Assembly (NCBI GenBank): GCA_019843655.1
Contig: JACDQD010000007.1
Coordinates: 28,052,816-28,116,815 of the forward strand
Reading direction: 5' to 3'
DNA: 64,000 nucleotides
Origin: Lethocerus indicus
Taxonomy: Eukaryota > Arthropoda > Insecta > Hemiptera > Belostomatidae
Part shown: piece by piece, positions 530-63,489 of the stretch
How positions within the stretch are numbered: position 1 is the first letter of the stretch
Layout of the letters: each line of letters opens with the position of its first letter
Program-made: the position numbers and the translations under genes
The notes under the pieces: generated by a model
Seen by the model: the letters and a program-made list of their open reading frames with translations, nothing else
Database searches by the model: none
Told to the model about the DNA's origin: nothing

Positions 530-655
530 TTTAGAATACGTGTTTTGTGGTCTGCGAGGGGGTTGGAATGGCGTAGATTTTCCCTCTCTCTGGTTTGGTC
601 TTTTGACAGACCGGTTTCGGCCGTTCGCCGTCTTCAGTAGCGTTGTTGTTAGTCA
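530..655 (-). repeat. HPR hairpin element, tail plus one arm only
   Basis: The copy starts with the family tail (ttagaatacgtg, then ttttgtggtctgcgaggggg). It continues through the outer arm, the GCCGG box and a minus-strand hammerhead-like core at about 609-642, and then stops, so the second arm is missing. With the tail at the left, the element reads on the minus strand. It looks like an old copy deleted on its 5' side. Confidence 0.7.
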
Positions 656-814
656 GGGTACATATATACATGTAAAAGGGTTAATAAGAGGGGTATAAAC
701 CCTGAATAATAGCACAGATATATACTAAACAAACCGGAATGTCGTCCAATAATGTCCTCTCGTTTATTCTCTAAACTCTTTAATATTTATGTATTAACAA
801 AAATATGTGTATTG

Positions 815-892
815 GCTAATTTTGCCTAAAGCGGCAAGCCGTCGACTTGTCGAGCCGGGGGTTCGTACCCCGTTTGGCGAATTTAAAATTAT
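815..892 (+). pseudogene. tRNA-like sequence (T-arm/B-box), possibly tRNA-derived repeat
   Basis: A perfect T-arm (CGGGG, loop GTTCGTA, CCCCG) lies at about 855-872. Upstream is a possible anticodon arm with stem GCAAG/CTTGT and loop CCGTCGA, which would place GTC (Asp) as the anticodon. No convincing D-arm is present. The acceptor strands pair only partly (GCCTAAA with TTTGGC). The sequence is therefore a degenerate tRNA or the head of a SINE-like repeat, not a good gene. Confidence 0.3.
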
Positions 893-1460
893 TCTTCCTT
901 TTTAAATTTTTTGCGTTGAATCGCGACTAAATTTTTTAAAAAGTGAATTACAAAAATCGGCTGAAAGGAAAAAGAAAAATTATGAACGCGGTTCGAATAC
1001 AGTCGCACCCCCGGGAGTCGTAGTACTCGTGCTTAATGGCCGTGGGAGCGCAAGCCCAGCCACCCTCCCTCCGCCGTCAAGACTCGGCCTACTGAAGTTT
1101 AAGGCCCATTAACATCAAGTAAAATATTCAGTGGCTACCTCCTGGGGGGTAGTAGGGAGGATGGGGCGGCCGGGGGTTGAATTAAAGGGGAGGTCTTATC
1201 CAAATGGGAATTACCAATCTATAATCTCTTTACAGCTCTCTGTTGGTTATTCTGTGGTTTGGAATTTCCCCCCAACACCCCCTCAAGCCCCCAAAACTCA
1301 CTCCCCCAGGTTCGGTTTTAAGGAAGACCAATCAAGGGGTAGTTTCTTCGGTTCAATCTCCTTTCAGGGTGGCATTCGTCAACGTGAATACGCGGCTATC
1401 TTTGATTCTGAAAAAAAATACTTTTTATTTTAATTTTTTTTCGCCACAAAACATGTCTGT

Positions 1461-1832
1461 TTTATGCGGTTTTTAGACCCAAAGTCTGCCCAAAAATGAG
1501 GTTTTTAGGCGCAATATCGACCCAAAAATGCTTTTTTTTTAGGTCAAAATCGGCCCAAAAATGCGGTTTTTAGGCCTAAAATAGGCCAACAAATGCGGTT
1601 TGTAGGCCCAAAAATGCGGTTTTTAGGTGCGAAATCAGTTCAAAAAGTGGTTTTTAGGCTCAAAATCGGCCCAAAAATGCGGTCTTTGGCCCAAGAATTC
1701 GGTTTTAGTCGCAAAATCGGCCCAAAATGATGTTTTTAGGCGCAAAATCATCCATAAATGCGCTTTTTAGGCGCAAAGTCAGCTCAAGAAAGCGGTTTTA
1801 GGCCCAGAAATGCGGTTTTTGGGACCAGAAAT
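1461..1832. repeat. Degenerate tandem repeat, unit about 30-36 bp
   Basis: About eleven imperfect units share the words GGTTTTTAGGC and AAAATCGGCCCAAAAATGC. Spacing drifts between about 25 and 40 bp. Related wording (TTTTAGGC, GATTTT, AAAACC) recurs near 20640-20900 and 28780-29560, so this may be one local member of a wider satellite-like family. Confidence 0.75.
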
Positions 1833-2747
1833 GCTGTTTGTTCACAAAATTGTTTCATACAAGCCCTATGGTGTGGACCATACGAAAGCGTTACCGACGG
1901 TTTGCAGTTTACAGATTTTATTTTCAACTAATAGACGCAATATCTCTTTTATTTATTCTATCAGTTCTGGAGGAAAATCAGGAAACGGGGAAGATAATTT
2001 TGTTACAAATTATCTTGTTATTCATTCCAACGTACTTTCTCGTCATTTAATATATCACTGTTTAAGATCTATTTTTTATCCCGTTGGACTTACAATACTC
2101 TTGTTAGACTTACAACCTTTAATACACTGGTTTTAAGCAAATTTTATATCACCTTGCTCTGGATTTATGCCCGGCGGCCTCATTACAATTGTATGTACAA
2201 ACTAAGAAAAGAAAAAATATCTGAGACTTTAGATAAGTTTTTAAATCAATCTCTAATTTGCCCCTACAACTTATATAACGACAGTATATGGACTACTGAC
2301 GCTGGCGAATAACCAATTGGAGCGGAGACGCGCCGGCGATTCGCTCGAAATTCACGGGCGTTTAATCAAAGCACGCTTTTGTTATTGTCCCTTAATTCGG
2401 ACGGGGGACTTTAGGGGATGAACGCGCTCCTGTCCTCAAAGGTTGTTACGCGCCCTTAACGTGACGGAAGGGTAAAAGACACCCCCACAACCCCTGAGAA
2501 GAAGATTGATGAAATGGTTCTGAATCGGTGAAATGAACGAATGAGCGAACTCTACAAGAGAGATTATTAATTCTTATTGACTGTCTGTTAATATACAATT
2601 ATTGATTAATATAAATGCATACGGTTAATACGTTTATGTACAATACATATTTAATTACACTTCTTGGTGTACAAATCACACTTGATATTCCACGCCGACG
2701 TCGGATTGTTCTAATTATAAACAAATTGGATCCAAAAAAAATAATGG
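1833..2747. other. Non-coding stretch, no gene seen
   Basis: The sequence is AT-rich. Two overlapping open frames of about 70-108 codons at 1810-2136 lack any recognisable domain and look accidental. No repeat shared with other parts of the window was found. Confidence 0.45.
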
Positions 2748-3038
2748 TAGACTTCCAGGTAGATTTGTTGTGTTTCTGTCTCCTCTCTCGCCGGTTCCCC
2801 GTCTTTTGCCAGACCGGTTTCGGCCGCTCGCCATCTTCAGCAGCGCTGTGTTGTTAGTCACTTTGGATGCCCGTAAAACGTCCAAAGTTCCGATAGCGAC
2901 TCGAACCGCTACCGAAGATGGCGAGCGGCCGAAACCGGTCTGGCAAAAGGCGGGGAACCGGCGACAGGAGACGGGAACACACACGAAATCTACGGTATAT
3001 TCCAACCCTTCGCAGACCACAAAACAGGTATGTCAAAC
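2748..3038 (+). repeat. HPR hairpin element
   Basis: The left arm starts at the GTAGATTT-type end (2757 onward) with a minus-strand core at about 2812-2846. The right arm carries the plus-strand core at 2907-2940, followed by CGAAATCTACGGTAT and the complete tail, ending near GGTATGTCAAACT. The plus-strand core has CCGAAGA in place of CTGAAGA. Tail is on the right only. Confidence 0.85.
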
Positions 3039-3807
3039 TATCAGGATTAATAGAATAGAAGTTTAGCTATCCGGTTATAGGGGACGGTTCGTCCTACACA
3101 AGGCAGTCTCTTGTGCCTACAATTATTTATTCTTAAATGATTTATCTTCGTTATAATATTGTCGACAACAAAAAAATATAATGGAATACGTATCTATTAA
3201 CTCGAACTATGATCCGAACTATAGTATGACTCCCGGTAGTTGAATCCCTTTGTGATGCCAGACCCGCCGTACTCGCGTGTCCTGCGGGACACTGTTAAGG
3301 AAAGGAAAATTCTATAAATTTCTGAAACCGCGTCTCCTTCCAGTCTACCCATTAATTAATTGTTAATGACACGGTAATTCAACGGCCACTATAAATAGTT
3401 GAGAATTTTCACTTTTCCGACTTCTCATCTTCACTTCTTTCAATTCTCAGCTGTAGGAAGAAAATCACGTGTCCGAGAAAATTTAAATTTGAAATCTTAA
3501 AATTACGGGATCAGATTCGAAATGTTAATCTCTGTTAACGTAATAATTCGATTTTTTTGTCAACTATCGCTGTCGTGGGCGAAAAAAAAGGGAATTATGA
3601 AATATCGGGGAATCATTTATTTTCTTTTTTTTTTGAGAGTGAGAGAGAGAGAGGCTAGCAATTAATTCTTCGGTATCGCTTTTATTTACCGATGACGATT
3701 CTTAATTAAACTCACGGCGGAGTTTTTTTATTTTTCTTCTTCGTCTCCTTTTTCCTTCCGACGGCTTTTAATTTCGCCCGAATAATGAAGGCGGTAAGAC
3801 ATCCGCC

Positions 3808-5828: not shown

Positions 5829-6491
5829 TATATCCGCGAGCGAAATCTCTTTTTCCGTACAAAGAGATGAGGTATCTTTTTCGTTCGCGATTGAAGGACA
5901 CGAAAAAAGAATTCGTTTCACCAGTTTCTGGTGGACAGTTTACGCCCTTTACGGTCAACCGAAACTATCCCCTAAGTGACACGACAGCCTTGCGACAGAA
6001 AACTACTACAAAGGAAAGTCTCTGAAATGTCACTTCTACAGCACTGGGACATTCAGAGGGGAGGGTTTTTTTTTCACCAACTGTCTACTGGGACGTGTGG
6101 AAAACATAATTGGGGTACGCGCCTACGCGGAGTTTTTCTGCGTACAAGTCGAAACAGGTACCAGTTTTGGACTTACGTCTTTCGCCGTCTCGGAATTTCA
6201 GTGCAACAATATAACAGTTTCAGGGGGGGGGGGGTAAATGAGAGAAAATATTGTCCCGGACGTATGAAAAGCCTGCGGGGACATAATAGTGATAATAGGG
6301 CCGATATAAATTGCGGCAGTACAGAAAACGGGGTCATTAAAAAAAACCGGGTTTTAATTGTGTTTTGTCGGGGAAGCGGGGAAAGGGATGATGGGGGAGG
6401 GGGGGGGAGTGGAAAGATCACTTTATAATGAGGCATTTCCCGAGCCCTCGTGGAGACGAGCGAGAGGGAATGTGGCAGTTTTGTGTCGGGA

Positions 6492-6493
<2 letters not shown>

Positions 6494-6528
<35 letters not shown>

Positions 6529-6640
6529 GGGGGGAGGCCACCCTCTTCATCGATCCGCGGCGCCACCCTCTTATTATCTGGGACAGACCCTCCTCCATCC
6601 CTCTCACTCTCTCTCTCTCCCTCCCTCTCTCCCTCACCCA
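6494..6640. repeat. (GA)n then (CT)n microsatellites
   Basis: A (GA) run at about 6494-6523 is followed some 70 bp later by a CT-rich run (about 6595-6640). The two could pair as a foldback. The open frames on both strands here are low-complexity artefacts. Confidence 0.85.
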
Positions 6641-7511: not shown

Positions 7512-8323
7512 GCCGTAGATTTCGTGTCGTTTCTGTCTCCTCTCGCCGGTCCGGTCTTTTGCCGGACCGGTTTCGGCCGTTCGCCGTCTTCAGTAGCGGG
7601 TTTACCCACTCTGGACGTCACATAGTACAAGTGACAGGGTCACAGTGCAGTGAGGGTGCCCGAAGGACATCCAAACTAAGTGACTAACACAGCGCTACTG
7701 AAGATGGCGAGCGGCCGAAACCGGTCTGGCAAAAGACCAAACCGGCGAGAGAGGAGACAAACACAACAAATCTACGGTACTTTTTTCTTCCTTTAATTGA
7801 AATAAGAAATTTGAGAACGATAGACGGAAAGAAACTTTAAAATAATACCGTAGATTTAGTGCGTTTCTGCCTCCTCTAGCCGGTTCGGTATTTTGCCTAG
7901 ACCGGTTTCGGCCGCTCGCCATCTTCAGTAGCGCGTTGTTAGTCACTTTGGATGTTTTCTGGGCATCCTCGCTGGACTGTCACTGGACTAACGCCGCTAC
8001 TGGAGGAGATGGCGGGCGGGTCCTTAACAAAAAAACCGGAGATTTCGTGCGTTTCTGTCTCCTCTCGCCTTTGCCAGACCGGTTTCGGCCGCTCGCCATC
8101 TTCGGTAGCGCGGTGTTTGTCAGCCACTTTGGCGCTTACACGCGCGACAAACAGACAACCGCCACAGTACAAGTGCAGTGAGGATGCCCCAGAAAAAAAT
8201 CCAAGACACCGCTACTGAAGATGGCGAACGGCCGAAACCGGTCTGGCGGAAGACCGAACCGGCGATAGGAGACGAAATCTACGCTATTCCGACCCGTCGC
8301 ACACCGCAAAACTGGTATTCTAA
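7512..8323 (+). repeat. Composite of HPR copies sharing a spacer with the 11-kb array
   Basis: The first hairpin (7512-7781) has cores at 7565-7598 (minus) and 7693-7726 (plus). It is followed by a 66-bp spacer (TACTTTTTTCTTCC through AACTTTAAAATAAT) and a second left arm (core 7900-7933) whose right arm is degraded. A third left arm (core 8077-8110) pairs with a right arm (core 8210-8243) and a tail ending GGTATTCTAAAT. The first hairpin's right half and the spacer match 11200-11440, so the two regions are duplicates. Confidence 0.85.
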
Positions 8324-10496: not shown

Positions 10497-11038
10497 CTAC
10501 TGGAACTTATTTAGTGATAATGTTGTTATTGAGCCTGTTTTTTTTTACTGTTGATCAATAAAATGATAAATATAAGTTACTACACTTTTCTCTTTCTTTT
10601 CATTCTCCTGTCAGTTTGGGATCAGTGAAAGTAAAGCTGTCAAAAAAAACACTCAACAACAGAACACTTATTGTTGTTTTTGATTTTCAGTGAGAAAAGT
10701 GGCATTTACCAGAAGCGTGCACAGTTTGTGACTGCATTAAGAATTTGTTCATGAAACTAGTTTAAGACGTATCCTGAGAGAGTTCAAAGTTCGAAGTCGA
10801 AGTGACACTTGTTGTTCTACGCCCCTGTTGGGATTTGTTTCCCTATTTCAAAGTCCGAACAGCTCCCGCCGTTTAGATTTATCTTAGGGACAATTCAGGA
10901 AATCAATAATTAGGAAAATTAATACTTCGAAATAAAATAATTAATTAAATACTCGCTAATTTTGCGGTGGAAACAGAGTTGTTTTTCTTTGACCTCACCC
11001 CTCTTGAAACCTTGCCAATAATAAAATACTTTTTTCTT

Positions 11039-11360
11039 CCAACATACCTGTTTTGTGGTCTGCGAGGGGTTGGAATACCGTAGATTTGTTGTTTTTCTGT
11101 CTCCTCTCGCCGTTTCGGTCTTTTGCCGGACCGGTTTCGGCCGTTCGCCGTCTTCAGTAGCGTTCAGTGTTGTTACCCACTTTGGCACCTTGGACGTCGC
11201 ATAGTAAGTACAAGTGAGAGGGACGCAGCGCAGTGAGGATGCCCGAAAAACATCCAAACTAAGTGGCTAACACAGCGCTACTGAAGATGGCGAGCGGCCG
11301 AAACCGGTCCGGCAAAAGACCAAACCGGCGAGAGAGGAGACAAACACAACAAATCTACGG
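11039..11360 (-). repeat. HPR hairpin element with perfect 12-bp target duplication
   Basis: The tail is at the left (AACATACCTGTTTTGTGGTC at 11041). Cores lie at 11129-11162 (minus) and 11277-11310 (plus). The right end stops at AAATCTACGG with no tail. The direct repeat TACTTTTTTCTT flanks the copy at 11027-11038 and 11361-11372. The copy therefore inserted into the spacer that is preserved at 7782-7847 and 11670-11737. Confidence 0.9.
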
Positions 11361-11426
11361 TACTTTTTTCTTTATTTAATTGAAATAAGAAATTTAAGAA
11401 TAGATGGGATGAAACTTTAAAATAAT

Positions 11427-11669: not shown

Positions 11670-11737
11670 TACTTTTCTCTTCCTTTAATTGAAATAAGAA
11701 ATTTAAGAACAATAGATGGGAAGAAACTTTAAAATAA

Positions 11738-14513: not shown

Positions 14514-14708
14514 TTTTATTGTATATTTTCCCGACTATCACAACAATATTGTAAAAAAATCCATGTTTAATGTATTGTAATATTTAAGAATATAAATGTA
14601 GTAAGGCCAATAGGCCGGAATACATGCAGTAATCACAATTTGTTTATACCGTTGTATCGTTATAATATTTGTATTTACAGAAATAAAAATTATTTGTGTC
14701 TTGTATCT

Positions 14709-15081
14709 ACCGTAGATTTCGTGCGTTTCCGTCTCCTCTCTCGCCGGTTTGGTCTTTTGCTAGACCGGTTTCGGCCGCTTGCCATCTTCAGTAGCGCTGC
14801 GTTAGTGTTAAATTTTCGACCGATAATCCGACAAACCAACCGATTAACCAAATCGCTACTAAACCAAATGAGACGAACAACACAATTAAAAAAAACATTA
14901 CAAGATACGTATATATATACACGACAAACACCACACAGTACAAGTGACAGTGACAGTGCAGTGAGGATGCCCAAAAAACATCCAAACTAAGTGACTAACA
15001 CAGCGCTACTGAAGATGGCGAGCGGCCGAAACCGGTCTAGCAGAAGACCAAACCGGCGAGAGAGGAGACGGAAACACGCGA
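14709..15081. repeat. HPR hairpin element with long insert in the centre
   Basis: Left arm core is at 14763-14796 and right arm core at 15004-15037. The centre contains about 130 bp of unrelated AT-rich sequence. The right outer arm is fused directly to the next copy. Confidence 0.85.
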
Positions 15082-15085
15082 AATC

Positions 15086-15335
15086 TTGGTCTTTTGCCGG
15101 ACCGGTTTCGGTTGCTCGCCATCTTCAGTAGCGGTGTTAGTCACTTTGGACACTTTGGATGTTTTCGGGCATCCTCACTGCACTGTCACTGTCCCCGGAC
15201 TAACACCGCTACTGAAGGAGACGGCGGGCAGCCGAAACCGGTCTGGCAAAAGACAAAATCAGAGAGAGGGGAGACAGACAGACACGAAATCTACGGTATT
15301 CCAACCCCTCGCAGACCACAAAACTGGTGTTCTAA
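15086..15335 (+). repeat. HPR hairpin element
   Basis: Minus core is at 15100-15133. The plus core at 15207-15243 carries the same GGA insertion type as the copy at 11582. The right arm and tail end CTGGTGTTCTAAAATAAA. The tail and downstream 130 bp reappear inverted at 43845-44000. Confidence 0.85.
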
Positions 15336-15465
15336 AATAAAATTTTATCCTACAACTGACAGGGATAAAAGATAACATTTTATGTAAATTTATAAGAAAT
15401 ATTCATATTAAAAAATAAATAATACTACTGAATGAAAGTAATCACAGAAATCATATTTAAATCGT
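15336..15465 (+). repeat. Segment duplicated in inverted orientation at 43845-43970
   Basis: ATAAAATTTTATCCTACAAC, CTGACAGGGATAAAAGATAA and GAATGAAAGTAATCACAGAA match the reverse complement of 43845-43970 with scattered differences. Both copies adjoin an HPR tail. Confidence 0.8.
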
Positions 15466-17752: not shown

Positions 17753-17791
<39 letters not shown>

Positions 17792-17792
17792 G

Positions 17793-23766: not shown

Positions 23767-23905
23767 GGGGCATTAGGGAATACCGTAGATTTCGTGTGTT
23801 TCTGTCTCCTCTCTCGCCGGTTCGGTCTTTGGCTAGACCGGTTTCGGCCGTTCGACGTCTCCATTAGCAGTGTTAGTCACTTTTGGTACTATGGATTTTC
23901 TTTTA
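23767..23905 (-). repeat. HPR left half, local duplicate of 24073-24208
   Basis: CATTAGGGAATACCGTAGAT begins both segments, and both end in CACTTTTGGTACTATGGATT and TTCTTTT. The core (23836-23869) is diverged (GACGTCTCCATTAGCAG), while the 24.1-kb copy is intact. Confidence 0.8.
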
Positions 23906-24083
23906 CTTTCTTATACTGTGGTTGATTGTCTGTCTGTCCTGTGTATATGTACGTGTCTTGTTATTGTGTTTTGGGGGGGATGTTGTTTGTCTTATTTGCT
24001 TTGTTAGGGGGGATTTTTGTTAATCGACTTAATTCTTTTCCGGTTGTCGGTCGAAAATAGGTATTGTAAACACATTAGGGAAT

Positions 24084-24283
24084 ACCGTAGATTTGTTGTG
24101 TTTGTGTCTCCTCTCTCGCCGGTCTGGTCTTTTACCAGACCGGTTTCGGCCGCTCGCCATCTTCAGTAGCGCGGTGTCAGCCACTTTTGGTACTATGGAT
24201 TTTCTTTTGGGCGTCCTCACTGCACTGTGTCACTGTCACTTACTCTTATTCCAACCCCTCGCAGACCACAAAACAGGTATGTT
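24084..24283 (+). repeat. HPR element with 16-bp target duplication
   Basis: Left arm with minus core at 24138-24171, a short centre, and then the tail directly (TATTCCAACCCCTCGCAGAC). The right arm is deleted. AAACACATTAGGGAAT (24068-24083) and AAACGCATTAGGGGAT (24284-24299) flank it, 14 of 16 identical. Tail on the right only. Confidence 0.85.
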
Positions 24284-25149
24284 AAACGCATTAGGGGATG
24301 TTCGATGAGGTAAGGTCGGTTTTAATGAGATTTTTTTGGCTGAGGTCAATTTTCATATCGGTTTTAGTAATAAATAGCTTTACTGGTCCTATAAGGCAGG
24401 AGGGGAGGGGTGGGAATCCACGTGGCTTGTTTAACTGTAAAAGTTTTACAGAAACCGTCCTTTCAGAAGTTGTTTTTGACAAGCGCCCCGTCTTTTTATT
24501 TTAAGTCTTTAATGCTTAAAAATAAATACAATTTCGACGAATAAATTAGTTCGGAAGTAAAGTTTGAAGCTGTCATCTGGCGCTATTAAGAGCAAAACTT
24601 GCCTACCAGATGAGAGAATTAAATAACTTCATTTTTAAACTAGTTTTTAAACACACAGCCCACCTGTGTATGTGTGCGTGTTAGCCATTAGCCCTTGACG
24701 ATTCACCTTAGTAGGGCAACTTTTGCCCTTTTCGCTTTAGGATCTGGGCCTGGGGGGGTGGTTTAAAGGGCGAAAGTTATCACTCCGATGCTCCCCGTTT
24801 AACTGACGACAGTATTCAATATATTATCTGGCGGGGAAACCGAAATAAATGATAGATTAAGATACGTAACGCCGGTCAGAAATGTGTATGCAGAAGCGCT
24901 TCGGTATTCGGCAGAAGTTCGATTCGAGTGATTCGGGACCGTTAAATATTTACGCGCCGAATGACTCTTTCCGGCGTCGGGGCGAGCCCGCTTTTTCCAT
25001 TTATCCCCATCCATTATTAATAAAAGAATTGCCAAAAGAGGGGATGAAATGTGGGGGGGTGGAAGAGGGAGAATTCGTCGGAGGGGACGTTCGAAGAAGC
25101 GGGATTTTGTTCCCGGCCCTGGTGGGGGGGCAGCTTCGATCGCCCGGAA

Positions 25150-29560: not shown

Positions 29561-29640
29561 CGACCGTACGCCGCATTTATCTCCCCCACGCAATGACCGG
29601 TCGGTAACAATTTAACATTTTTATCTTATATAAAACTGTA

Positions 29641-29863
29641 GGTTCGTGATGTTTCTGTCTCCTCTCGCTGGTTTGGTCTTTTGCTAGACCGGTTTCGCCG
29701 CTGGCCATCTTCAGTAGCGGTGTTAGTCACTGTTAGCACCGCTACTGAAGATGGCGAGCAGCCGAAACCGGTCTAGCAAAAGACCTAACCAGCGGAGGAG
29801 ACAGAAACATCACGAACCTAAAGTATTCCAACCCCTCGCAGACCACAAAACAGGTATATCAAA
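29641..29863 (+). repeat. HPR hairpin element with perfect 15-bp target duplication
   Basis: The left end is GGTTCGTGATGTTTCTG and the right arm is CATCACGAACCTAAAGTATT, followed by a tail ending CAGGTATATCAAA. TTATATAAAACTGTA flanks it at 29626-29640 and 29864-29878. The arms are near-identical with an almost absent centre, so this is a short, fairly young hairpin. Confidence 0.92.
29741..29777 (+). ncRNA. Hammerhead-ribozyme-like core (right arm of the 29.6-kb HPR)
   Basis: GCTA (29741-29744) can pair with TAGC (29774-29777) as helix I. CTGAAGA (29745-29751) fits the CUGANGA core. GGC-GAGCA-GCC (29753-29763) forms helix II. GAAA (29764-29767) leads into the self-complementary ACCGGT and GTC, giving a predicted cleavage after C29773. 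One extra T sits between CTGAAGA and helix II, a departure from the canonical core. Helix III is too short for a monomer, so a dimeric fold would be needed. Confidence 0.45.
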
Positions 29864-30280
29864 TTATATAAAACTGTAAACAAGGCGGAATATCGCTCGG
29901 AATAATATCCGTTCAGCGATGAATGAACAGAAACATTCTGTGTTGCGCACTGTATTGTACCTCTTGGGGATGAGCCGGCCGACTATATTTGTACGTGCTT
30001 GTACGTGCGTGGACGTGCCTCAGCGTTCGAACGCTTTAATGGGCTTTAAAGGCGATAGCCCGAGACCGCCGACGACAGTTGAGTGATGGGCCTTCCCATT
30101 AGGGGACGAGATAAGGGCTGATGGGCTTCTGGGAAGGGCCCCATTTTCAGTCTCGATGAACAAGAGAAATTCTCCACTAACCCAATCTCCTTTGTCATAC
30201 TTATTTACCGACGTCGAGTGAAAAGGGGATGTGCGAAATTTAGTGTACATAAATACGTAATGCCTTGTTTGTAGTCGCTA

Positions 30281-38465: not shown

Positions 38466-38982
38466 CAGAACCCAGCTTGATATTTTCACTTTCGCCTCAT
38501 TAAAACTCCTGTCTAGACCAGACCTTAGGGATTGTGATGAGCTGGCTGCCGTAATTGTGATAAGGGAGGAGCTTAGTTAGAATAAAGGGAAAAAAAGACC
38601 CGAAGACTGTGGTGGTGGGTTTATATCAGGAGTGATGAGGGCCGGCAGAGGTTTACAATTCAATTAGCCCCCAAACCACCCCCCCCCCCAAACCGCCCCC
38701 ATTCACCCACCCCTAAAGTCCCGAGGTATCAGGATCCACTGACAGGCGTTAGCTCCTGTTTATAACGGCTTTATACGGCGGCGATATTAATTATTTCGGA
38801 CCGTTATGAAACTTCGGGAGCCGTAAATTTTACGCGAATAATTTCCCCCGGAGATATCCCCTCCGTAGAGGGGACTTTTCCGTAGAGCGGTGGCAGTTTC
38901 CCGGAAAAAGGTTTCCTCAGTTTTCTATCCGCTCCAGTTATCTCTCGGCCTAATCTTTCGTTTATTGTACGATCAACAAATA

Positions 38983-39181
38983 GTTTAGAATTTCCGCGAG
39001 GGGTTGGAATACCGTAGATTTGGTGTGTTTCTGTCTCCTCCCGCCGGTTCGCTCTTTCGCTAGACCGGTTTCGGCCGCTCGCCATCTTCAGTAGCGGTGT
39101 TAGTCCCTTCTGGTACTTTGGATGTTTTACCGGTCTGGCGAAAGACCAAACCAGCGAGAGGAGACAGAAACACAAGAAATA
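38983..39181 (-). repeat. HPR hairpin element with perfect 15-bp target duplication
   Basis: The left tail has an internal deletion (GTTTAGAATTTCCGCGAGGG). Minus core 39063-39096. The right arm is reduced to ACCGGTCTGGCGAAAGACC and the outer arm CACAAGAAATA. TACGATCAACAAATA flanks it at 38968-38982 and 39182-39196. Confidence 0.9.
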
Positions 39182-39564
39182 TACGATCAACAAATAATTA
39201 AAGTACAATTGCGGAAGGATGTTTTATGGCACTTATTGTCGATTAAGATGACAGGCAAATGATTGTAATTTTGTCTAAGCTACACAGGACAGGGCAAGGA
39301 AAGTTCCGCTTACGGAAATCTTCGCTCATTTAGAATATTTTTTCTTACTTTAGTACTGCAACGCATTTAGATATTTGATTCAGTTTTGTGTTCTGTTAGG
39401 TTCGGTAAATTAAAAATTTGTTTTCAATGATTTACTGCGTGCATTTAAAGTTGGTGTCTATCCCAATTTTCCCAAATTTCCTTAGTTTTTCAAACACGTT
39501 CTTCGAATGAATTTTCCAGACCTCAATCTGTACCGGCTGGTACCAAAAACAGACTTCTCTCTCG

Positions 39565-46316: not shown

Positions 46317-47018
46317 GAGGGAACGAATTTTCCGCAGCCTCAATCTATCTCGATTCTCGTTCCGTATCCTATTCCTATTATTATCAAATTGAAAGTTCTC
46401 CAATCCCCCCCGCCCCCCGGGGGGCTATCCAGGAACCGGTTGGGTAGAATTCACTGTACACGGGGGTCGCTAGGAGAAATTCCTTAGGGATTCCTTAAAA
46501 TGTGTTCGTCCCAAGTGCCTAATCCCGAAGAACAAAATCGCCCGAATGTCCCACCGTTTATATCGCCAACCAGACTCTTTATATATTTTATTCACGATTT
46601 ATTCACGATCGAACCCATCCCTATCCTGTAATGTATTTTCTGTGAAACAATTGTATCGCTCCCGATTAGCAGTAAACTTAAGATGTGATAAAATTATATC
46701 AGGTTGTATATTATAGCTGGATAGTGGCAACAATTTTCTTGATCACTTTCCGAATGATCGCCCGAACGTAGCCCAAAATAATCATAAATATAATTTGGTC
46801 GAGAATAAATGAAATACCGTCGTAAAAATTTACAATTCCCTGAAGTTATAATTGAAATTCTGGACGCTGAAACCTCATTTGTACAGTCTGTAACTCGTTA
46901 ATGTTTGCGAACACATTAATTTTGAACATTTTTGTTATCGTTCTACAGATTTGAATGCTTAAAAATATGACACTTGCGGTCTATATAACTGACAGGTGTA
47001 AATAATAATTATTTATTA

Positions 47019-47157
47019 GTTTAACATACCTGTTTTTTGGTTTGCGAGGGGTCGGAATACCGTAGGTTTTTCCGTCTCCTCTCTCGACGGTTTGGTCTTT
47101 TGCTAGACCGGTTTCGGCCGCTCCGAGAGGAGACGGAAACACCACAAACCGACGGTT
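47019..47157 (-). repeat. Short HPR with 13-bp target duplication
   Basis: Tail GTTTAACATACCTGTTTTTT, left arm to a truncated core at 47106-47122, then directly CCGAGAGGAGACGGAAACAC and CACAAACCGACGGTT. TAATTATTTATTA (47006-47018) and TAATTATTTGTTA (47158-47170) flank it. Confidence 0.88.
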
Positions 47158-47667
47158 TAATTATTTGTTATTTTCTCGATTGCCACTGCATCCCTAATAA
47201 ACCTGTTGTAACTGTAATTTTCACGAAAACTCCACCCCCCCCCGCCAACGTTAGCCTTATCATAAAATCCATTCCCGCCCGCCCCTATTTATGGATTTCT
47301 GACGACTAATCATTCGGGTAATTGGTCCGTTAATCTTTTTAAATTTTCCGCCCCCACCCTATTATATTATAATAGATGCGGCTAATAAGGGGCGGATAGT
47401 GGGGGGGTGTTTTGTACAAAACGGCGAAGCTCATTGGGTATTCAGAGGGCGGTTCAATTACAGCGGGGGCGGGTATCCACCAATTAAAACGGATCTTCCA
47501 GGCAAGCACCGAACAAAATTATAAGGGCAGGAAATTAACCTCCTTTTTTTTCTGAAAAAACTCATTTTTTCTATTAATTTTCTAGCCTTCCTTACCCGCT
47601 AATGTTTTTTTCCTCTACCGGGTCAGCACTCGTGTAATGTTCCATAAAAAAAAAAGGTATATAGGTT

Positions 47668-47984
47668 CCGTAGGATTGCGGTGTTTCTGCCTCCTCTCGC
47701 CGGTTCGGTCTTTCGCCAGACCGGTTTCGGCCGCTCGCCATCTTCAGTAGTCACTGTTGGATGCTTTTCGGGGGGCATCCTCACTGCCCACTGTCACTTG
47801 TACTGTACGGTGGTTGTCTGTTCGTCGTGTGTGCAAAGTGCCAAAGTGATCAAGTAACTGCCGCTACTGAAGACGGCGAGCGGCCGAAACCGGTCTGGCG
47901 AAAGACCGAACCGGCGAGAGGAGACAGAGAAACACACGAAATCTACGGTATTCCAACCCCTCGCAGACCACAAAACCGGTATAT
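47668..47984 (+). repeat. HPR hairpin element
   Basis: Outer left arm CCGTAGGATTGCGGTG, cores 47719-47751 (minus, lacking its final GCG) and 47872-47905 (plus), right arm CACACGAAATCTACGG and full tail. GGTATATAG occurs just left of the copy and overlaps the tail end, so a target duplication cannot be told from tail sequence. Confidence 0.85.
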
Positions 47985-48204
47985 AGCTTCGTTATTCTCC
48001 GCAGTTGTTATTTTGAAAATTAAGCGAATTTGAATTTTTTCTGTCCTCCGTGATTCGAACTCGCCGAAGTTTTACAGAACGGAGATTGTTACAATTAAAT
48101 ACAGACCGGTTTTCGGATTCTATTCAATGCCTTTCGAGTATTGCATTGGAAGGGTTTTCGCCCTTTCCCTTTGAGAGGGCGGGGGACCTCTAAGGGTTGT
48201 TGTC

Positions 48205-48247
48205 CCCTTCCGACGTTTCGGAACTCCTGCCGGTTTCATCCTGAACC
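48205..48247 (-). other. Penelope-like motif fragment (GACGTTTCGGAACTC type)
   Basis: On the minus strand it reads TTCAGGATGAAACCGGCAGG then AGTTCCGAAACGTCGG, the same wording as the inverted pair at 52650-52880. The CTGA box is lost. Animal Penelope-like elements carry hammerhead-type motifs ending CGAAACGTC, so this is a possible relic. Weak. Confidence 0.3.
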
Positions 48248-49072
48248 CTGGGTAATAATTTCGCGGTATTACGCCGAGATTCGTTAGCCACAATTTATAT
48301 CCGTCCGTTTAACGCTTGGGAATGCGAAAGGCATTAGAATAGGTAGAAATATTTCACGGGAAAATAAAATGGAAAAAAATTTACAGCAGTCGGCCGAGCG
48401 AAAGGAGTTTATTACGGTTAAAAAAGAAGTTTTATTTTCCCGCGTGTGAGGGCAATAAAAAGGTTCAGAATTTCCGCGTAGTCCGCCCCTGAAACGGCTT
48501 CTGAAACGTCTCCAAGGGTGGAAGGGCACCGCCGTGATTCATATCCACCCCCACGCCCCCTTACCGAAACCTACCCTCACCGCCAACAATTGGGGGGTGA
48601 AAAATGGCGTCCCTTAAACGACTGTAATCTCCAATGTCCATTTTCTTTTTCTCGAACACCCCACAGGTGCCCGTAGTTCGAAACCGTTTCTTAAACTGCC
48701 CCCGAAAAGCGATTCATCAACTACTCTGTAAACTTCGATTGGCCGAAGTAATTTGGTAATTTACCGAAAACCTGAACGAGGCGCTATTCTAAAAACAGCC
48801 AACTGGCTTTTTGTCGCCAAATTAACGATAAGTCCATTGATACGCCTCGAGAGAAAAGGGAAATTCAAAACATTATTAACCTATATTGTAGGGACCGAAT
48901 TTCATCAATATTAACAGCCTTTCGGTATTAACAGTAAAGGCTGGAATTGATTTAATTATCAATTTCGGACTAGCAGTAAGTTGAACTAGATTTTATTTAC
49001 CGTTTAGACAGTACTGAAGTACATTCTGTAGGTTCGTGATGTTTCTGTCACCTCTCGTTGGTTAGGTCTTTT

Positions 49073-49109
49073 GCTAGACCGGTTTCGGCCGCTCGCCATC
49101 TTCAGTAGC
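49073..49109 (-). ncRNA. Hammerhead-ribozyme-like core, left arm, minus strand
   Basis: This is the mirror of the core at 49250-49286 and identical to it. On the minus strand GCTA, CTGAAGA, GGC-GAGCG-GCC, GAAA, ACCGGT, GTC, TAGC appear in order. A transcript of either strand therefore carries one core and one anti-core. Confidence 0.45.
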
Positions 49110-49249
49110 GCTGTGTTAGTCACTGTCAGCACTTTGGATGTTTTTTGGGCATCCTCACTGCCCACTGTCACTTTCACATGTACTGTAGTGTCAGTGGGCA
49201 GTGAGGATGCCCAAAAAACATCCAAAGTGCTGACAGTGACTAACACAGC

Positions 49250-49286
49250 GCTACTGAAGATGGCGAGCGGCCGAAACCGGTCTAGC
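49250..49286 (+). ncRNA. Hammerhead-ribozyme-like core, right arm, plus strand
   Basis: Helix I GCTA (49250-49253) with TAGC (49283-49286). Core CTGAAGA (49254-49260). Extra T at 49261. Helix II GGC (49262-49264) / GCC (49270-49272) with loop GAGCG. GAAA 49273-49276. Palindromic ACCGGT 49276-49281. Predicted cleavage after C49282 of GTC. The arrangement follows a type I hammerhead with a dimer-only helix III. Activity is untested and the extra base is non-canonical. Confidence 0.45.
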
Positions 49287-49829
49287 AAAAGACCTAACCG
49301 GCGAGAGGAGACAGAAATATCACGAACCTACAGTATTCCAACCCCTCGCAGACCACAAAACAGGTATATCAAATTAAGTACATTCTGTTTTATCAACTCG
49401 CAGTAAATATAATTTGACAGGTAGATATCACTAGGAAATATTTCGTGCGCCGGCCGCGGTATTCAGACTCGAGGCGGTGACACGGCCCCCCGGCCGTTCT
49501 ATTTATAGACCGGTTTCAATTTTGTAACGAGTGCTGACTCGGCGCTGTGACGCATTCTGAGGGAACGCCGCTGACCCCGCTACTAGTGATGAACCCCACT
49601 ATATTCGCCCCGTTTTAGATCGCGCAACTCATCGAATAAAACCGCCCGACGGTTCTTCGAACGGTCTATATGGCCGGGGATAAAAATATATTCTGTATTC
49701 ACTTGGCGGTATATAAAATTAATGTCCGCCGGTAAACTAATAAGTGTGGGCGGGAGGGGGGGGGGCCCTCGTAAGGTTTCACTGTTATGAAAAACTGAGT
49801 TCCAGTTACGACTCTTGTGATTTTGTTGA

Positions 49830-50200: not shown

Positions 50201-50325
50201 AAAAAAATTCTGTTAAAATTTGAGATTCGTTATAATTTGTCCCATTTTCCGGGTCAAAAGTGAATAGCCCAAAGACAAAACTGGACAGAATTATTTCCTA
50301 GAAAGTCCTAATTTACGTAGTTTAA
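50201..50325 (+). repeat. Spacer repeated at 54331-54445 and 54630-54720
   Basis: GAGATTCGTTATAATTTGTC and AACTGGACAGAATTATKTCC and TAGAAAGTCCTAATTTACGT are shared, each time ending at an HPR tail (TAGTTTAACATACC). Confidence 0.88.
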
Positions 50326-50670
50326 CATACCTGTTTTGTGGTCTGCGAGGAGTTGTAATACCGACTCCCACCAGTTCGGTCTTTCGCTAGACCGGTTTCG
50401 GCCGCTCGCCATCTTCAGTAGCGCTGTGTTAGTCACTGTCGGCACTTTGGATGTTTTTCGGGCATCCTCACTGACCACTGTCACTGTCACTGTCGTTTGT
50501 ACTGTGGTCGTTGTCTGTTTGTCGTCTGTGTAACTAACTGTCAAAGTGACTAACAAACAACACAGCGCTACTGAAGATGGCGAGCGGCCGAAACCGGTCT
50601 AGAAAAAGACCGAACCGGCGAGAGGAAATCTACGGTATTCCAAACCCCACTCGCAGACCACAAAACGGGT
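50326..50670. repeat. HPR hairpin element with tails on both sides
   Basis: Left tail GTTTAACATACCTG, shortened outer arm (GACTCCCACCAGTTCGG), cores 50390-50423 and 50567-50600, right tail ending GGGTATTCTAAAG. The centre has TGTCACTGTCACTGTCGTTT. Two-tailed copies are rare here (also 56945). Confidence 0.85.
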
Positions 50671-51621
50671 ATTCTAAAGATTTTGTCGATTTTCCGCCAC
50701 GACTATTCTACGGTATTTCAAACTTTAACGTAAGTAATCCTATTCTGATGTACATAAAAATTGAGGCTGGGAAATAAATTATTTTACCCTTATTCCGTCC
50801 ACTGACAATATTCTGGTCTACTGCTATTGAAGCGGTCTTGTAAAGTCGTTTACAAAGTGCCTTTGATCGTCGCTGAAGATATTTTACTGGCCCCCCACCC
50901 TCAAGGACCGACTTGGGGTAGGTGGATATTCGATCGGAGGGAGGAAACGAAACGTCTTTGAAGTAGCCCCCGATATAACCGAACGATTGGAAGTGACCCC
51001 TCAGCAATTGGGGGTAAAGGGATGTAAAGGTACACAGAAAACCTGGCGCCAAAACAACTCGTTACATTTCCGAAAAAATTCTGTAACCCCGCCTTATATT
51101 ATAGAAATAGGGTTTGAAAAACGCTTGAACAGTGTTAAAAATTCGATTTCGTTTAAAAATCCGATATTTATGATTGTACAGTCGAAAAAACCGTACTATT
51201 TAATCATTATTCGTGCCCTGCAATAAAATTCGGATATAACTTCGAGTTTACGACGGTCCCTAACGAGCCCTTCTTCCCGCTCCCCACCCCGTAATCATTC
51301 TTAGGGCGGTATTTAATAAAATTAAAAGCGAAAGAAATAAAGAGGGGGCAAGACTTAGACGCGAAGATTAGAAATTAATAATGCCCCCTACCGAATCTTA
51401 CCTCGTTCTTTACCTCTGTTTAAGCCCGAACGAAGCCTGGAAAATGACGGTATTCATTTTTCAATTTTTAATGGCCACCGGGCTGGGGGAGGGGGGCGCA
51501 CTTTATTTTTTAATTTTAACAAAAATTTGAATTGTAAAACGCAAATTGCTCTCGGCCAATCACGTTCCTGTTGATATTAGGCTGTTGTAAAAATAAGACA
51601 GGATTTTTTTTGTAAAGAAAT
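50671..51621. other. Non-coding stretch, no gene seen
   Basis: Mixed AT-rich and C-run sequence. Frames of 79-114 codons at 50708-51226 have no recognisable domain. No repeat shared elsewhere was found. Confidence 0.4.
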
Positions 51622-54000: not shown

Positions 54001-54330
54001 TATGAATTTCGTTTTGTCATTAACATTTCAATGTCCTAGATTTCGTGTATTTCCGTCTCTTTACGGCGGTTCGGTCTTTTGCTAGACAGGGTTTCGGCCG
54101 CTCGCCATCTTCAGTAGCGCTGTGTAGGCCTCTGTAGGCATCCTGCACTCTGTCACTGTCACTTGTACTATGTGACGTCCAAAGTGCCAAAGCGACTAAC
54201 ACAGCGCTACTGAAGACGGCCTGCAGCCGAAACCGGTCTAGCAAAAGTCCAAACCGGCGAGAGGAGACAGAAACACACGAAATCTACGTTATTCCAACCC
54301 CTCGCAGACCACAAAACCGGTATTCTAAAA
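54001..54330 (+). repeat. HPR hairpin element after a shared spacer
   Basis: Spacer ATGAATTTCGTTTTGTCATT and AACATTTCAATGTCCTAG is the reverse complement of 61105-61145. The hairpin then has cores 54085-54119 and 54205-54238 and a tail ending ACCGGTATTCTAAAAAA. Its right half equals 50030-50200. Confidence 0.85.
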
Positions 54331-54445
54331 AATTCTGTTAAAATTTGAGATTCGTTATAATTTGTCCCATTTTCTGGGTCAAAGTGAATAGCCAAAGACA
54401 AAACTGGACAGAATTATGTCCTAGAAAGTCCTAATTTACGTAGTT

Positions 54446-54620
54446 TAACGTACCTGTTTTGTGGTCTGCGAGGAGTTGAATACCAACTTTCTGTATTTTG
54501 CTAGATTGCTGCTCGCCATTTTCAGTAGCGGTGTTATATTAGTCACTTTGGGCATTCTCACTGTCACTGTCACTACTGTAGTGACATCCAACCTTCGCAG
54601 ACCACAAAACAGGTATTTTA
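54446..54620. repeat. Short two-tailed HPR
   Basis: Left tail GTTTAACGTACCTGTTTTGT, a reduced arm with a partial core (CTGCTCGCCATTTTCAGTAG), a small centre, then CTTCGCAGACCACAAAACAG as right tail. Confidence 0.78.
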
Positions 54621-54720
54621 CAAAATTTTTGTTACTGAGATTAGTTATAATTTGTCCCATCCGGGTCAAAAGTGAAACAAACTGGACAGAATTATGTCCT
54701 AGAAAGTCCTAATGTACGTA

Positions 54721-54945
54721 GTTTAACATACCTGTTTTGTCGTCTGCGAGGAGTTGTATAATACCAACTCCCACCAGTTCGGTCCTTCGCTAGACCGGTT
54801 TCGGCCGCTCGCCATCTTCAGCACCGGCGTTGTCACTTTCGGCACTCTGGATGTTTTTCGGCCATCCTCACTGCCCACTGTCACTGTCACTGTCACTGAC
54901 ACAGTACAAGGAGACAACAACAGAAATCTACGGTATCCTAATCTA
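54721..54945 (-). repeat. HPR tail and left arm
   Basis: Tail GTTTAACATACCTGTTTTGT, arm as in the 50.3-kb copy (ACTCCCACCAGTTCGG), core 54793-54824 with CAGCACCGG in place of CAGTAGCGG, centre with four TCACTG units, and only a stub of right arm. Confidence 0.8.
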
Positions 54946-56944: not shown

Positions 56945-57332
56945 TTTAATATACCTGTTTTGTGGTCTGCGAGGGGCTGGAATACAGTAGGCTCATGGTA
57001 TTTCTGTCTCCTCTCGCCGGTTCGGTCTTTCTGTAGACCGGTTTCGGCCGCTCGCCATCTTCAGTAGCGGTGTTAGTCACTGTTGTGGCACTTTGGACGT
57101 TTTTCGGGCATCCTCACTGCACTGTGTCATTGTCACTTGTACTTTCGTGGATGTCTGTTTGTGCGGTGAGGATGCCCCCCAAAAAACATCCAAAGTGCCA
57201 ACAGTGACTACTGAAGATGGCGAGCAGCCGAAACCGGTCTGGCAAAAGACCGAACCAGCGAGAGGAGACAGAAACACCACAAACCTACTGTATTCCGACC
57301 CCTCGCAGACCACAAAACAGGTATGTTAAATA
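56945..57332. repeat. HPR hairpin element with two tails
   Basis: Left tail AGTTTAATATACCTGTTTTG, cores 57036-57069 and 57207-57240, right tail ending CAGGTATGTTAAAT. Long well-paired arms. No flanking direct repeat seen. Confidence 0.88.
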
Positions 57333-58552: not shown

Positions 58553-58573
58553 TGAACGAAACACATAATATTC

Positions 58574-59535: not shown

Positions 59536-59692
59536 CGGGAAAATTACGTTATTGAGATAAGCCCGAAAGAAAAGTGTACAGGTCGGGGGATTCAAAGCTA
59601 GTTGGAGGAACATCGGACAGAGAGATCGGACGAAGACATTAGATTTACTGTAGAATTGGATGACTTCGGTCCCTAAATAGTGAAATATTACC

Positions 59693-60029
59693 AGTTTAAT
59701 ATACCTGTTTTGAGGTCTGCGAGGGGTTGGAATTCTGTAGGTCCGTCATGTTTCTGTCTCCTCTCGCCGGTTTGGTCTTTTGCCAGACCGGGGTTTCGGC
59801 CGCTCGCCATCTTCAGTAGCGCTGTGTCAGTCACTGTCGGCACTTTGGATGTTTTCTGGGGCATCCTCACTGCCCACTGTCACTTTCACATGTACTGTAG
59901 TCGAACTGACATCCAAACTTAAAGTAGACACCCTGAGTGACTGACACAGCGCTACTGAAGATGGCGAGCGGCCGAAACCGGTCTTACAAAAGACCAAACC
60001 GGCGAGAGGAGACAGAAACATCACGAAAC
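59693..60029 (-). repeat. HPR hairpin element with perfect 12-bp target duplication
   Basis: Left tail AGTTTAATATACCTGTTTTG, arm GTAGGTCCGTCATG, cores 59786-59821 and 59950-59983, right arm ending AACATCACGAAAC without tail. TGAAATATTACC flanks at 59681-59692 and 60030-60041. Confidence 0.93.
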
Positions 60030-60352
60030 TGAAATATTACCGTCTTACCCATTAATAAATATGTCTTATTAATTAAATACGAAAGTTATTAATACTAATG
60101 TCGAGATAATTCGTCCTTAACTTTCGTCAAAATGGTACATTTCGCTTTAAGCTCTCTCTGTAACTTCAAAAATTGAATTAGTTGGCAATTTTTATACTTT
60201 CCTATATTGCTTAAGTTCTTTTTTTTTTAAGCTCTATGTTTGTTGTATTTTTGAGCCTGATTATATTACAAATGTGTTTGCTTTTCGAGCTTTCCTTTTA
60301 ATTGTGCTGCAATTGAGCTACCTAAAAGGCTATTTCTTAAAATTTTAAGGAC

Positions 60353-61968: not shown

Positions 61969-61978
61969 ATTTCTCGGA

Positions 61979-62003: not shown

Positions 62004-62017
62004 TATTTTTATAGCTA

Positions 62018-62235
62018 ACCATCTTCAGTAGCGGTATTTAGTCACTTTGGATGTCAGTTAGTACAAGTGACAGTGACAGTGAAGTGGGGACGGCCAAAAG
62101 ACGCAAACACGGCGCTACTGAAGATGGCGAGCGGCCGAAACCGGTCTAGCAAAAGACCAATCAGGCGACAGACGAGACAGAAAAACACGAAATTTATGGT
62201 ATTCCAATCCCTCGCAGACCACAAAACGGGTATGT
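62018..62235 (+). repeat. HPR element, left arm truncated
   Basis: Starts within the left core (ACCATCTTCAGTAGCGG), centre with GTACAAGTGACAGTGACAGT, plus core 62113-62146, right arm and tail ending GGGTATGTTAAACT. Confidence 0.85.
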
Positions 62236-62397
62236 TAAACTAATTTTATTCTTGTTTATATTCATTTTCACATTTTAAATTCTGTAAGGCCTACTTTCTG
62301 TGTTCTTTTTAACTCTGCGGCAAAACAATGTTCAATATTTGTTTCTAATCATCTATACAGCGTATACAAATTTTTAAGGCCCACGTTTGTTGGTGAA

Positions 62398-62487
62398 CAA
62401 TGCTACTGAAGATGGCGAACGGCCGAAACCGGTCTAGCAACCGGACCGAACCGGCGAGAGAGGAGACAGAAATACAGGAAATCTACT
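62398..62487 (+). repeat. HPR right-arm fragment
   Basis: Plus core 62401-62434, then CCGGCGAGAGAGGAGACAG and GGAAATCTACTAG. Left arm and tail absent. Confidence 0.8.
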
Positions 62488-62952
62488 AGTAATAAAGGTT
62501 TTATCCAACTGTGTGCAAACAACGGGTTCAGTGCATAGGGAAAACCGTTTGGGGTACGATTTTTCCGACGATGATACCCGAGTTTTCTCCCGCTCCCTCT
62601 TCCTTTTCCCCGCCCTTTTATAGGAAAATCCTATCCCGATTCCGAATTCTCGGCACACCCGAGTCGGACGAGAATCGGAAATGCTCACGGCCCGGATTTG
62701 AGGCTTCGGAAAACGAGGTGAAAATCGAACCGTGTGTGTGTGTGTGTTTCGGGGGTTTCGGCCGCATATGGCCCTAACCGATATTCAACCCCCGTCGGTC
62801 CGAAAATTTCCCTGTCTGCCCCCTCCCTATTATCATCGCGTGGAAAAACTTTCCCAGCAAGTTTTCCACTACGGCCGAAACTTTCGGAAGGCGGATTGGG
62901 GAAATTGTTATTTCACTGCACGTTAATCGACGTACCCAAACGCTTTATAATA

Positions 62953-63156
62953 TCGGGTCGGCAACTAAGTCATTGCCGGTTTCGTAGCGCTAGACGGAGA
63001 CGGCGTTATTTGTATTTTTACGCACGTTTACGCATCTTCAAACCTATATAGGGTATATTCTGAAATGTTTATTACAACGTGCCAACTATTAGTCGCGCCT
63101 GCCGAGAAATGCACGACACACCCGAAGAATCCGCAATTATTTAGTTGCCGACCCAA
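62953..63156. mobile_element. Mariner-type MITE (family B)
   Basis: TCGGGTCGGCAACTAAGTCA and the reverse of TATTTAGTTGCCGACCCAA are flanked by TA. The interior matches 58087-58270 with about 20 extra bases after the left end (GGTTTCGTAGCGCTAGACGG). Confidence 0.88.
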
Positions 63157-63297
63157 TAGAATTTCGTTTCTGAATCCGTTGTACAGAAAATATTGAATTT
63201 CACGAACTGAATTCAAATTTTCAAAAAAAATAGTTACAGTCCATACCCGAAATTGACAAATTGGCTGTTAAAAGTGCGGGTGATGAAAATTTTATTC

Positions 63298-63477
63298 CGT
63301 AGATTTCCTGCGTTTCTCTCTCATCTCTCGCCGGTTCGGTCTTTTGCCAGACCGGTTTCTGAAGACCCTCCGCCGTCTTCAGTAGTTGTAGTTTTAGTTA
63401 CTTGTTAATGTTCTTTTCGGGCACTTGTCTGTGAGACAGAAACCACAAACCCTGGCAGACCACAAAAAAGGCATTCT
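63298..63477 (+). repeat. HPR element with 12-bp target duplication
   Basis: Arm GTAGATTTCCTGCG, a core disturbed by a TGAAGACCCT insertion (63350-63385), shrunken centre, right arm reduced to GTGAGACAGAAACC, tail CAGACCACAAAAAAGGCATT. AAAATTTTATTC flanks at 63286-63297 and 63478-63489. The same word also occurs at about 63609, so local AT-richness is a caution. Confidence 0.78.
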
Positions 63478-63489
63478 AAAATTTTATTC

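Follow-up and report, generated by a model that had tools for sequence, protein, structure and literature searches.

A stretch of 64,000 nucleotides from the hemipteran Lethocerus indicus (contig JACDQD010000007.1, positions 28,052,816 to 28,116,815; hereafter the window) harbours a family of short hairpin repeats which is a retroposon and works, as is well supported, like a terminus of a Penelope-like element (PLE). The family is probably a short non-autonomous retroposon with PLE terminal anatomy, consisting of an inverted terminal repeat (pLTR), a pLTR and a tail, with no coding body seen. Judged from its sequence, it likely descends from a PLE, and it looks like a small, abundant PLE offshoot rather than a wholly new kind of element. 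The family occupies the following part of the window:

530..63480, no strand assigned: span of the repeat family, with 48 tails, 118 arm segments and 40 inverted arm pairs

Of the 64,000 bases, 10,109 belong to arms or tails. With its long non-coding stretches and its density of transposable elements, the window has a eukaryotic appearance. A preliminary description of the same DNA had counted about 60 copies sharing one plan; the family proved to be real and far above chance, but its size is better given as 48 tail matches and 40 inverted pairs, the latter assembled from the 118 arm segments, 38 of which stayed unpaired by the pairing rule used. Oriented by the tail, a copy consists of a distal arm in antisense (D arm), a centre of variable length, a tail-side, pLTR-like arm in sense (P arm) and a tail of about 40 nt which ends near GGTAT-TC-TAAAC. 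The best copy is organised as follows:

49017..49029, + strand: left target duplication AAGTACATTCTGT, 13/13 identical to 49376-49388
49023..49172, + strand: D arm, antisense of the pLTR-like unit, sharing its outer 7 nt with the target duplication
49073..49109, − strand: hammerhead-like motif in the D arm, legible on the opposite strand only
49187..49336, + strand: P arm, the sense pLTR-like unit
49250..49286, + strand: minimal type-I hammerhead-like motif GCTA CTGAAGA TGGCGAGCGGCC GAAA CCGG TC TAGC
49337..49375, + strand: one-sided tail TCCAACCCCTCGCAGACCACAAAACAGGTATATCAAATT, 39 nt; conservation stops at its end
49376..49388, + strand: right target duplication

The arms of this copy, each 150 nt long, are 96% complementary and enclose a loop of 14 nt; as RNA, the copy has a predicted fold of −300.9 kcal/mol (z = −40.5 versus 100 shuffles). 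The rule used for tail placement assigned a tail to one side in 22 of the 40 pairs, to both sides in 2 (50335-50654 and 56981-57294) and to neither side in 16, some of the last being misses of the rule on truncated arms. A tail at a single end, reported without exception in the preliminary description, is thus the general rule, not an absolute one.

Target duplications, a sharp 3′ end, apparent 5′ truncation and AT-rich flanks all fit a retroposon. For the duplications, the 5′ junction of each copy was aligned to its 3′ junction, and swapped real flanks of other copies served as the null. Flanking duplications scoring at least 10 were found in 10 of 38 copies, against a permuted mean of 0.45 and a maximum of 4, and none of 5000 permutations reached the observed count. 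This set equals 41 copies minus two copies of the tandem cluster at 30.2-31.2 kb and one sharing a D arm, and was tested with a slightly wider 3′ window than the 41-copy version, in which ten scores of at least 10 (0.45 expected) included one artefact of the 30.2-31.2 kb tandem. Eleven flanking repeats had been listed before. Nine of them reached at least 10 (11036, 24288, 27857, 29865, 38970, 47018, 49375, 59693 and 63482), while the diverged repeat at 58558 scored 8.5 and the one at 42145/42461 scored 7 in the 41-copy version and stayed below 8 in the 38-copy test. Six high scorers have perfect duplications (copies 49017, 29626, 38968, 59681, 63286 and 11027), which in order of length measure 12, 12, 12, 13, 15 and 15 bp; in the remaining four the repeat is diverged or the match starts within tail-like sequence. 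Apart from the best copy, the following were delimited:

11027..11372, − strand: copy with a 12-bp repeat AAGAAAAAAGTA, the right repeat lying within a recurrent spacer
29626..29878, + strand: copy with a 15-bp duplication TTATATAAAACTGTA (29626-29640 / 29864-29878), an internally deleted hairpin
38968..39196, − strand: copy with a 15-bp duplication TATTTGTTGATCGTA and a shortened tail; its D arm ends at the ACCGGT palindrome
47006..47174, − strand: short copy, hairpin interior deleted, flanked by a diverged duplication (2 mismatches in a 17-nt match)
59681..60041, − strand: copy with a 12-bp duplication GGTAATATTTCA
63286..63489, + strand: copy with a 12-bp duplication AAAATTTTATTC

Individual matches carry caveats. 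The right repeat at 11361 falls in a spacer which recurs at 7782 and 11674, copy 24288 is part of a tandem pair and its match takes in tail-like sequence, and the match at 27857 (12/14) starts 8 nt inside the tail end. The match of an additional copy at 47990 (score 10.5) likewise has its start within the tail end. In all ten high scorers the left repeat extends 0-10 nt into the arm consensus; by eye, the overlapping bases largely agree with this consensus at 29626 and 49017, as in microhomology. An unrestricted search for direct repeats within 600 bp upstream of the tails was discarded as too noisy (mean 9.2 versus 7.1; 5/48 above all controls). A search of the window for paralogous empty sites, in which the two flanks were searched separately, yielded no site with both flanks adjacent among the matches listed.

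The 3′ end is sharp: AAA occupies positions GGTAT+4 to +6 in 40-44 of the 48 tails, positions +7 and +8 are mixed, and the sequence beyond is AT-rich but unconstrained. The 5′ end lies at the start of the arm in 30 of 41 copies and deeper, as an apparent 5′ truncation, in 11, as assigned by a rule that may pick a neighbour's arm in nested places. Right flanks contain 72% AT (48 flanks) and left flanks 67% (30 flanks), compared with a background of 58%; 0 and 5 of 10,000 draws, respectively, reach these values. The preliminary description had named an excess of flanking repeats and a sharp 3′ end as support; both were observed in the window. Its preference for target-primed reverse transcription over a transposon with terminal inverted repeats (TIRs) was upheld as well, since variable duplications, perfect at 12-15 bp, a fraction of 11/41 apparently 5′-truncated copies, a sharp 3′ end and a hairpin plan kept despite internal deletions fit the former better.

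Beyond the preliminary description, which had mentioned Penelope-like elements only among the sequences to be searched, the arms were found to contain a hammerhead-like motif. Hammerhead ribozymes are characterised by a core of CUGANGA, GAAA and UH. The P arm reads GCTA-CTGAAGA-Y-GGC-GAGCG-GCC-GAAA-CCGG-TC-TAGC and so comprises this core, a helix I of 4 bp and a helix II of 3 bp in which one base is unpaired, while a self-complementary CCGG, through which two copies could pair, occupies the place of helix III. At the level of the motif, this makes up a minimal type-I hammerhead in the sense arm. A scan with this motif gave 29 matches (18 on the + strand, 11 on the − strand), all of them in arm segments, compared with a mean of 0.025 per shuffled window (40 shuffled windows), and 0 of 20,000 shuffles of one half-element matched the pattern. 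As the 29 matches are copies of one sequence and therefore non-independent, and as the pattern is post hoc, conservation is the better test. In the 87 of 118 arm segments with a length of at least 45 nt, the core diverged from the consensus by 2.1% and the other non-CpG arm sites by 9.7%; none of 20,000 random site sets was as low. A tail-anchored set, less prone to bias of the arm search, in which 29 of 48 copies hold the motif region, showed divergence in 6 of 317 core cells (1.9%) versus 133 of 1422 other arm cells (9.4%), with 49 of 20,000 site sets as low. The core is kept in both arms, with 3/294 divergent cells in P arms and 5/168 in D arms. The most variable sites within the motif are two sites of the helix-II loop, one of them a CpG, the base adjoining helix II, which is T or C, and one pair of helix I (T-A in 32 and T-G in 31 of 69). 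That the ribozyme core is conserved while the rest of the arm diverges suggests selection on self-cleavage or structure during the spread of the family. Pure decay after insertion should affect core and other sites alike, which is not the case; active source lineages are therefore the probable origin of much of the 9% divergence, and the insertions as such may be young.

Penelope elements are described as carrying pLTRs beside which an inverted pLTR lies, in most cases in head-to-head arrangement, and an optional tail at the 3′ end of one pLTR (PMC3846280). As such inverted pLTRs with an optional tail and target-site duplications (TSDs) are published, the plan of a hairpin retroposon is not as unusual as the preliminary description had it. 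Endonuclease-bearing PLEs (Penelope; Pen2a_Av and relatives from Adineta vaga) share with the present family the head-to-head inverted terminal repeat and the TSDs, and the A. vaga elements, according to the same source, also the 5′ junction formed by microhomology, the AT-rich targets and partial tandems (PMC3846280). The one-sided tail measures 31 bp in the elements described there and about 40 nt here, and the TSDs reported for A. vaga Penelope are 8, 9 and 10 bp long, compared with perfect TSDs of 12-15 bp. Unlike the A. vaga PLEs, the family has no visible coding body; the inverted pair and the tail form the whole element, which occurs by the dozens in 64 kb. Movement of pLTR-framed foreign DNA in trans by Penelope is on record (PMC3846280). 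All available PLE sequences are reported to carry hammerheads (PMC6155905); those of the pLTRs, like those of the arms described here, are minimal type-I motifs without helix III (PMC6155905, PMC7761336), and they may cleave as dimers (PMC6155905, PMC7761336, PMC7229834). 

Other small elements are comparable in part. Heliconiine butterflies have non-autonomous Penelope elements (PMC6685494) which are, like the present family, short, Penelope-related and prominent in some genomes; the description used for this comparison gives no hairpin structure, so the comparison is confined to these traits. Metazoan non-LTR retrozymes, described as small and non-autonomous with type-I hammerheads and a proposed mobilization by PLEs or long interspersed elements (LINEs), are direct tandem repeats giving circular RNA (PMC7229834), whereas the present family has inverted arms and thus a sense and an antisense hammerhead in each RNA. 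Direct tandems of arm-plus-tail units were seen only at 30.2-31.2 kb, the arms being inverted otherwise. Exact tail patterns gave 0 matches in viral and genome contig collections, which included no eukaryote collection.

Several observations weigh against the assignment to PLEs and against a working ribozyme. No reverse transcriptase or GIY-YIG domain was found in 169 open reading frames (ORFs) of the window; of 253 smaller candidates, 149 were covered by the scan, so short remnants may escape; Pfam gave weak single matches only (FAM176, E 0.094; seven one-member families, the best YtzH with E 7.5e-05), with no mobile-element enzyme among them. The 30 complete 5′ ends among 41 copies are many for a PLE, since PLEs are described as 5′-truncated on insertion (PMC8969392), and at 59681 the overlapping bases disagree with the consensus, leaving no microhomology visible by eye at this 5′ junction. 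As to the hammerhead, the pattern was written after the sequence had been seen, and a mask moved by 1 or 2 nt scored nearly equally, so that a conserved block is proved and not the exact core alone. Helix II is weak, its 3 bp including a basal position which pairs in 0/77. Rfam detected no hammerhead in the window at E 0.1, nor in 47640-49400 at E 5; the matches obtained were microRNA models, one snoRNA and one 3′-UTR model, all below gathering scores. A coding origin of arm and tail was considered and rejected: the 38-codon frame that runs from an ATG of the P arm across the tail is open, yet it gives no sign of coding constraint (third positions 0.070 versus 0.094 and 0.084; synonymous/non-synonymous 62/202 versus 105/179 and 63/192 in other frames). 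The family also differs from Pen2a_Av, for which a terminal repeat plus tail holding the start of an ORF is reported, a feature neither defining for PLEs nor expected of non-autonomous copies. Independently of the family, hairpin-forming simple repeats rich in (GA)n/(CT)n at 6485-6640 and 17753-17836 draw sub-threshold microRNA matches in Rfam.

Some of these points would equally suit a hairpin short interspersed element (SINE) moved by a LINE instead of a PLE, with the hammerhead acquired independently. LINE machinery would explain the duplications, the AT content of the flanks and the 5′ truncation just as well, the predominance of complete 5′ ends is SINE-like, no PLE protein is seen in the window, and Sm-alpha, a non-autonomous retrotransposon of schistosomes, is also reported to carry type-I hammerheads (PMC6155905). 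SINEs and the family are alike in being short and non-autonomous, with variable TSDs, a sharp 3′ end and a mostly complete 5′ end. They differ in that the body of the family is a mirror hairpin and in that no tRNA, 7SL or 5S head was detected: ARAGORN found 0 tRNA genes, and none of these families was among 72 Rfam matches at E 0.1. The combination of terminal repeats in inverted orientation, a tail of about 40 nt on one side and a minimal hammerhead is, in the sources cited above, reported for PLEs. A full-text literature search retrieved no paper on hairpin or palindromic SINEs or retroposons, which is no proof of absence as most subscription papers lay outside its coverage. We consider a LINE-moved SINE unlikely.

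The second question is whether the RNA needs to be a hairpin at all. The inverted arm might arise afresh whenever a copy inserts, through self-priming (snap-back) on the P arm, a process published as a proposal for the inverted repeats of PLEs, namely A. vaga Penelope (PMC3846280). The arms of one copy indeed co-evolve, as they share derived bases: 38 were common to both arms compared with 19.7 for swapped arms (sd 3.3, maximum 30, 1000 permutations, 25 pairs), and the nearly equal conservation of the core in D and P arms would also be expected from snap-back. On the other hand, identity within a copy barely exceeds that between copies (0.829 versus 0.814, 31 pairs), and in 17 tail copies the within-copy value (0.842) is not above that between P arms (0.851), with D-D at 0.790 and P-D at 0.820. 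P-P and D-D average to P-D, and an arm-specific ancestry, tried as an explanation, therefore received no signal either way. Loops were compared in 19 hairpins, which are those of the 22 one-sided pairs with usable hits; the D arm reaches deeper in 9, the P arm in 7, and both are equal in 3. Such internal deletions are asymmetric, and the copies keep the hairpin plan despite them. In 9 of the 19, the D arm holds inner sequence that its own P arm lacks, which contradicts its origin as a snap-back copy unless the P arm lost this sequence later. As a D arm cannot be copied from bases absent in its own P arm, the simplest explanation is that the transcribed RNA already contains the hairpin, which jumps then trim, whereas self-priming may have founded it; snap-back at each insertion appears improbable to us. 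In 3 of the 19 hairpins the D arm ends at positions 55-58, the palindrome ACCGGT. As it reads identically in both arms, this palindrome could act as a direct repeat for a jump.

Two loci contain a non-palindromic segment, termed X, in addition to the arms:

14706..15338, + strand: hairpin with segment X, in the opposite sense, between its arms, followed by a 5′-truncated second copy
23771..24296, + strand: tandem pair in which a D arm, segment X and a short tail end precede a second copy

The two versions of segment X (23941-24058 versus 14922-14812) are 69% identical over 120 columns. As they lie in opposite senses in the two copies, they may be remnants of a source hairpin that exceeded every copy in the window in length. 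The sequence CATTAGGG is present at all three junctions of the tandem pair 23771-24296, as if the second copy had used the target duplication of the first.

A foldback or long-TIR DNA transposon with deletion derivatives would account for long inverted repeats and variable loops, and also for two copies with tails at both ends:

50319..50680, no strand assigned: hairpin with a tail at both ends (exception), adjoining a locally duplicated segment
56945..57331, no strand assigned: hairpin with a tail at both ends (exception)

Such a transposon is highly improbable, as the perfect duplications do not have one fixed length and, of the 24 pairs to which a tail was assigned, 22 have unlike ends. Least credible of all is that one inverted repeat was multiplied locally, in satellite-like or segmental fashion, without real insertions, for although local duplication is seen at 30283-30708, in the chains at 7.5-8.3 and 11.0-12.0 kb and at 50.2/54.3 kb, many copies have flanks which are unmatched elsewhere in the window or match the family only, and several own individual target duplications.

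Local arrangements of the family were noted in their own right. P arm and tail units form a direct tandem at 30242-31160, with a period of 194 bp at 30283-30708; three of its units lack the same 21 nt over the 3′ part of the hammerhead, and tails face each other near 30875. A spacer of 62 bp (85-92%) at 7782-7843, 11365-11423 and 11674-11735 joins hairpins into hairpin-spacer-hairpin chains, and in the chain at 11 kb the tails at 11036 and 11970 point in opposite ways. A 97% repeat (50207-50355 / 54329-54476, weaker at 54636-54759) sits between two mutually facing tails. Two copies have 115 bp (94%) in common directly past the tail end (15339-15453 and 43845-43959), a candidate for a 3′ transduction, a longer form of the element or a host repeat, at the end of which no clear flanking duplication was readable. 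Tandem arrays unrelated to the family occur at 35716-36294 (14 bp unit), 40388-41438 (about 33-35 bp) and 44807-45823 (19 bp).

Returning to the family as a PLE-type terminus, we infer a PLE parentage, a partner enzyme acting in trans, an active ribozyme and its locking within the hairpin, which would give the following route of replication. The whole unit would be transcribed as one RNA, predicted to fold into a long hairpin with a 3′ tail of about 40 nt. A PLE reverse transcriptase/endonuclease provided in trans would nick AT-rich DNA, prime at or beside the tail end and copy toward the 5′ end, as the sharp 3′ end, the duplications and the AT-rich flanks suggest; the tail may be what this enzyme recognises, as supposed in the preliminary description. 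Copying would often jump across the hairpin, sometimes at the ACCGGT of both arms, and thereby produce the varied loop sizes; the asymmetric deletions themselves are observed, and reverse transcription is their presumed origin. The 5′ end would then join the target, perhaps sometimes via microhomology of a few bases, leaving duplications of 12-15 bp or so. In the full hairpin, the hammerhead of the sense arm would pair with the antisense of the other arm and should thus be locked, so that cleavage would require sense arms arranged head to tail or an RNA without the D arm. Tentatively, we propose on this basis a self-sustained hairpin retroposon, in which the inverted pLTR pair and tail of a PLE may have gained independence as a SINE-like parasite on the PLE enzyme; the hairpin would switch off self-cleavage and protect the template, and the loop would shrink by jumps, some of them at the shared palindrome.

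The replication and priming of PLEs and the role of their minimal hammerheads are described as unresolved (PMC3846280, PMC7761336). A family without a body, reduced to about 350 nt, must hold the signals which the enzyme needs in cis and narrows the search for these signals in PLEs to this length, and a hammerhead pairing with its own antisense represents a simple, testable switch. The long hairpin would be an obvious substrate for Dicer, so the family could feed host silencing. If the proposal of a self-sustained hairpin retroposon is true, a reverse transcriptase copies through a near-perfect RNA hairpin of 150 bp, and the family reveals the minimal sequence that a PLE enzyme needs.

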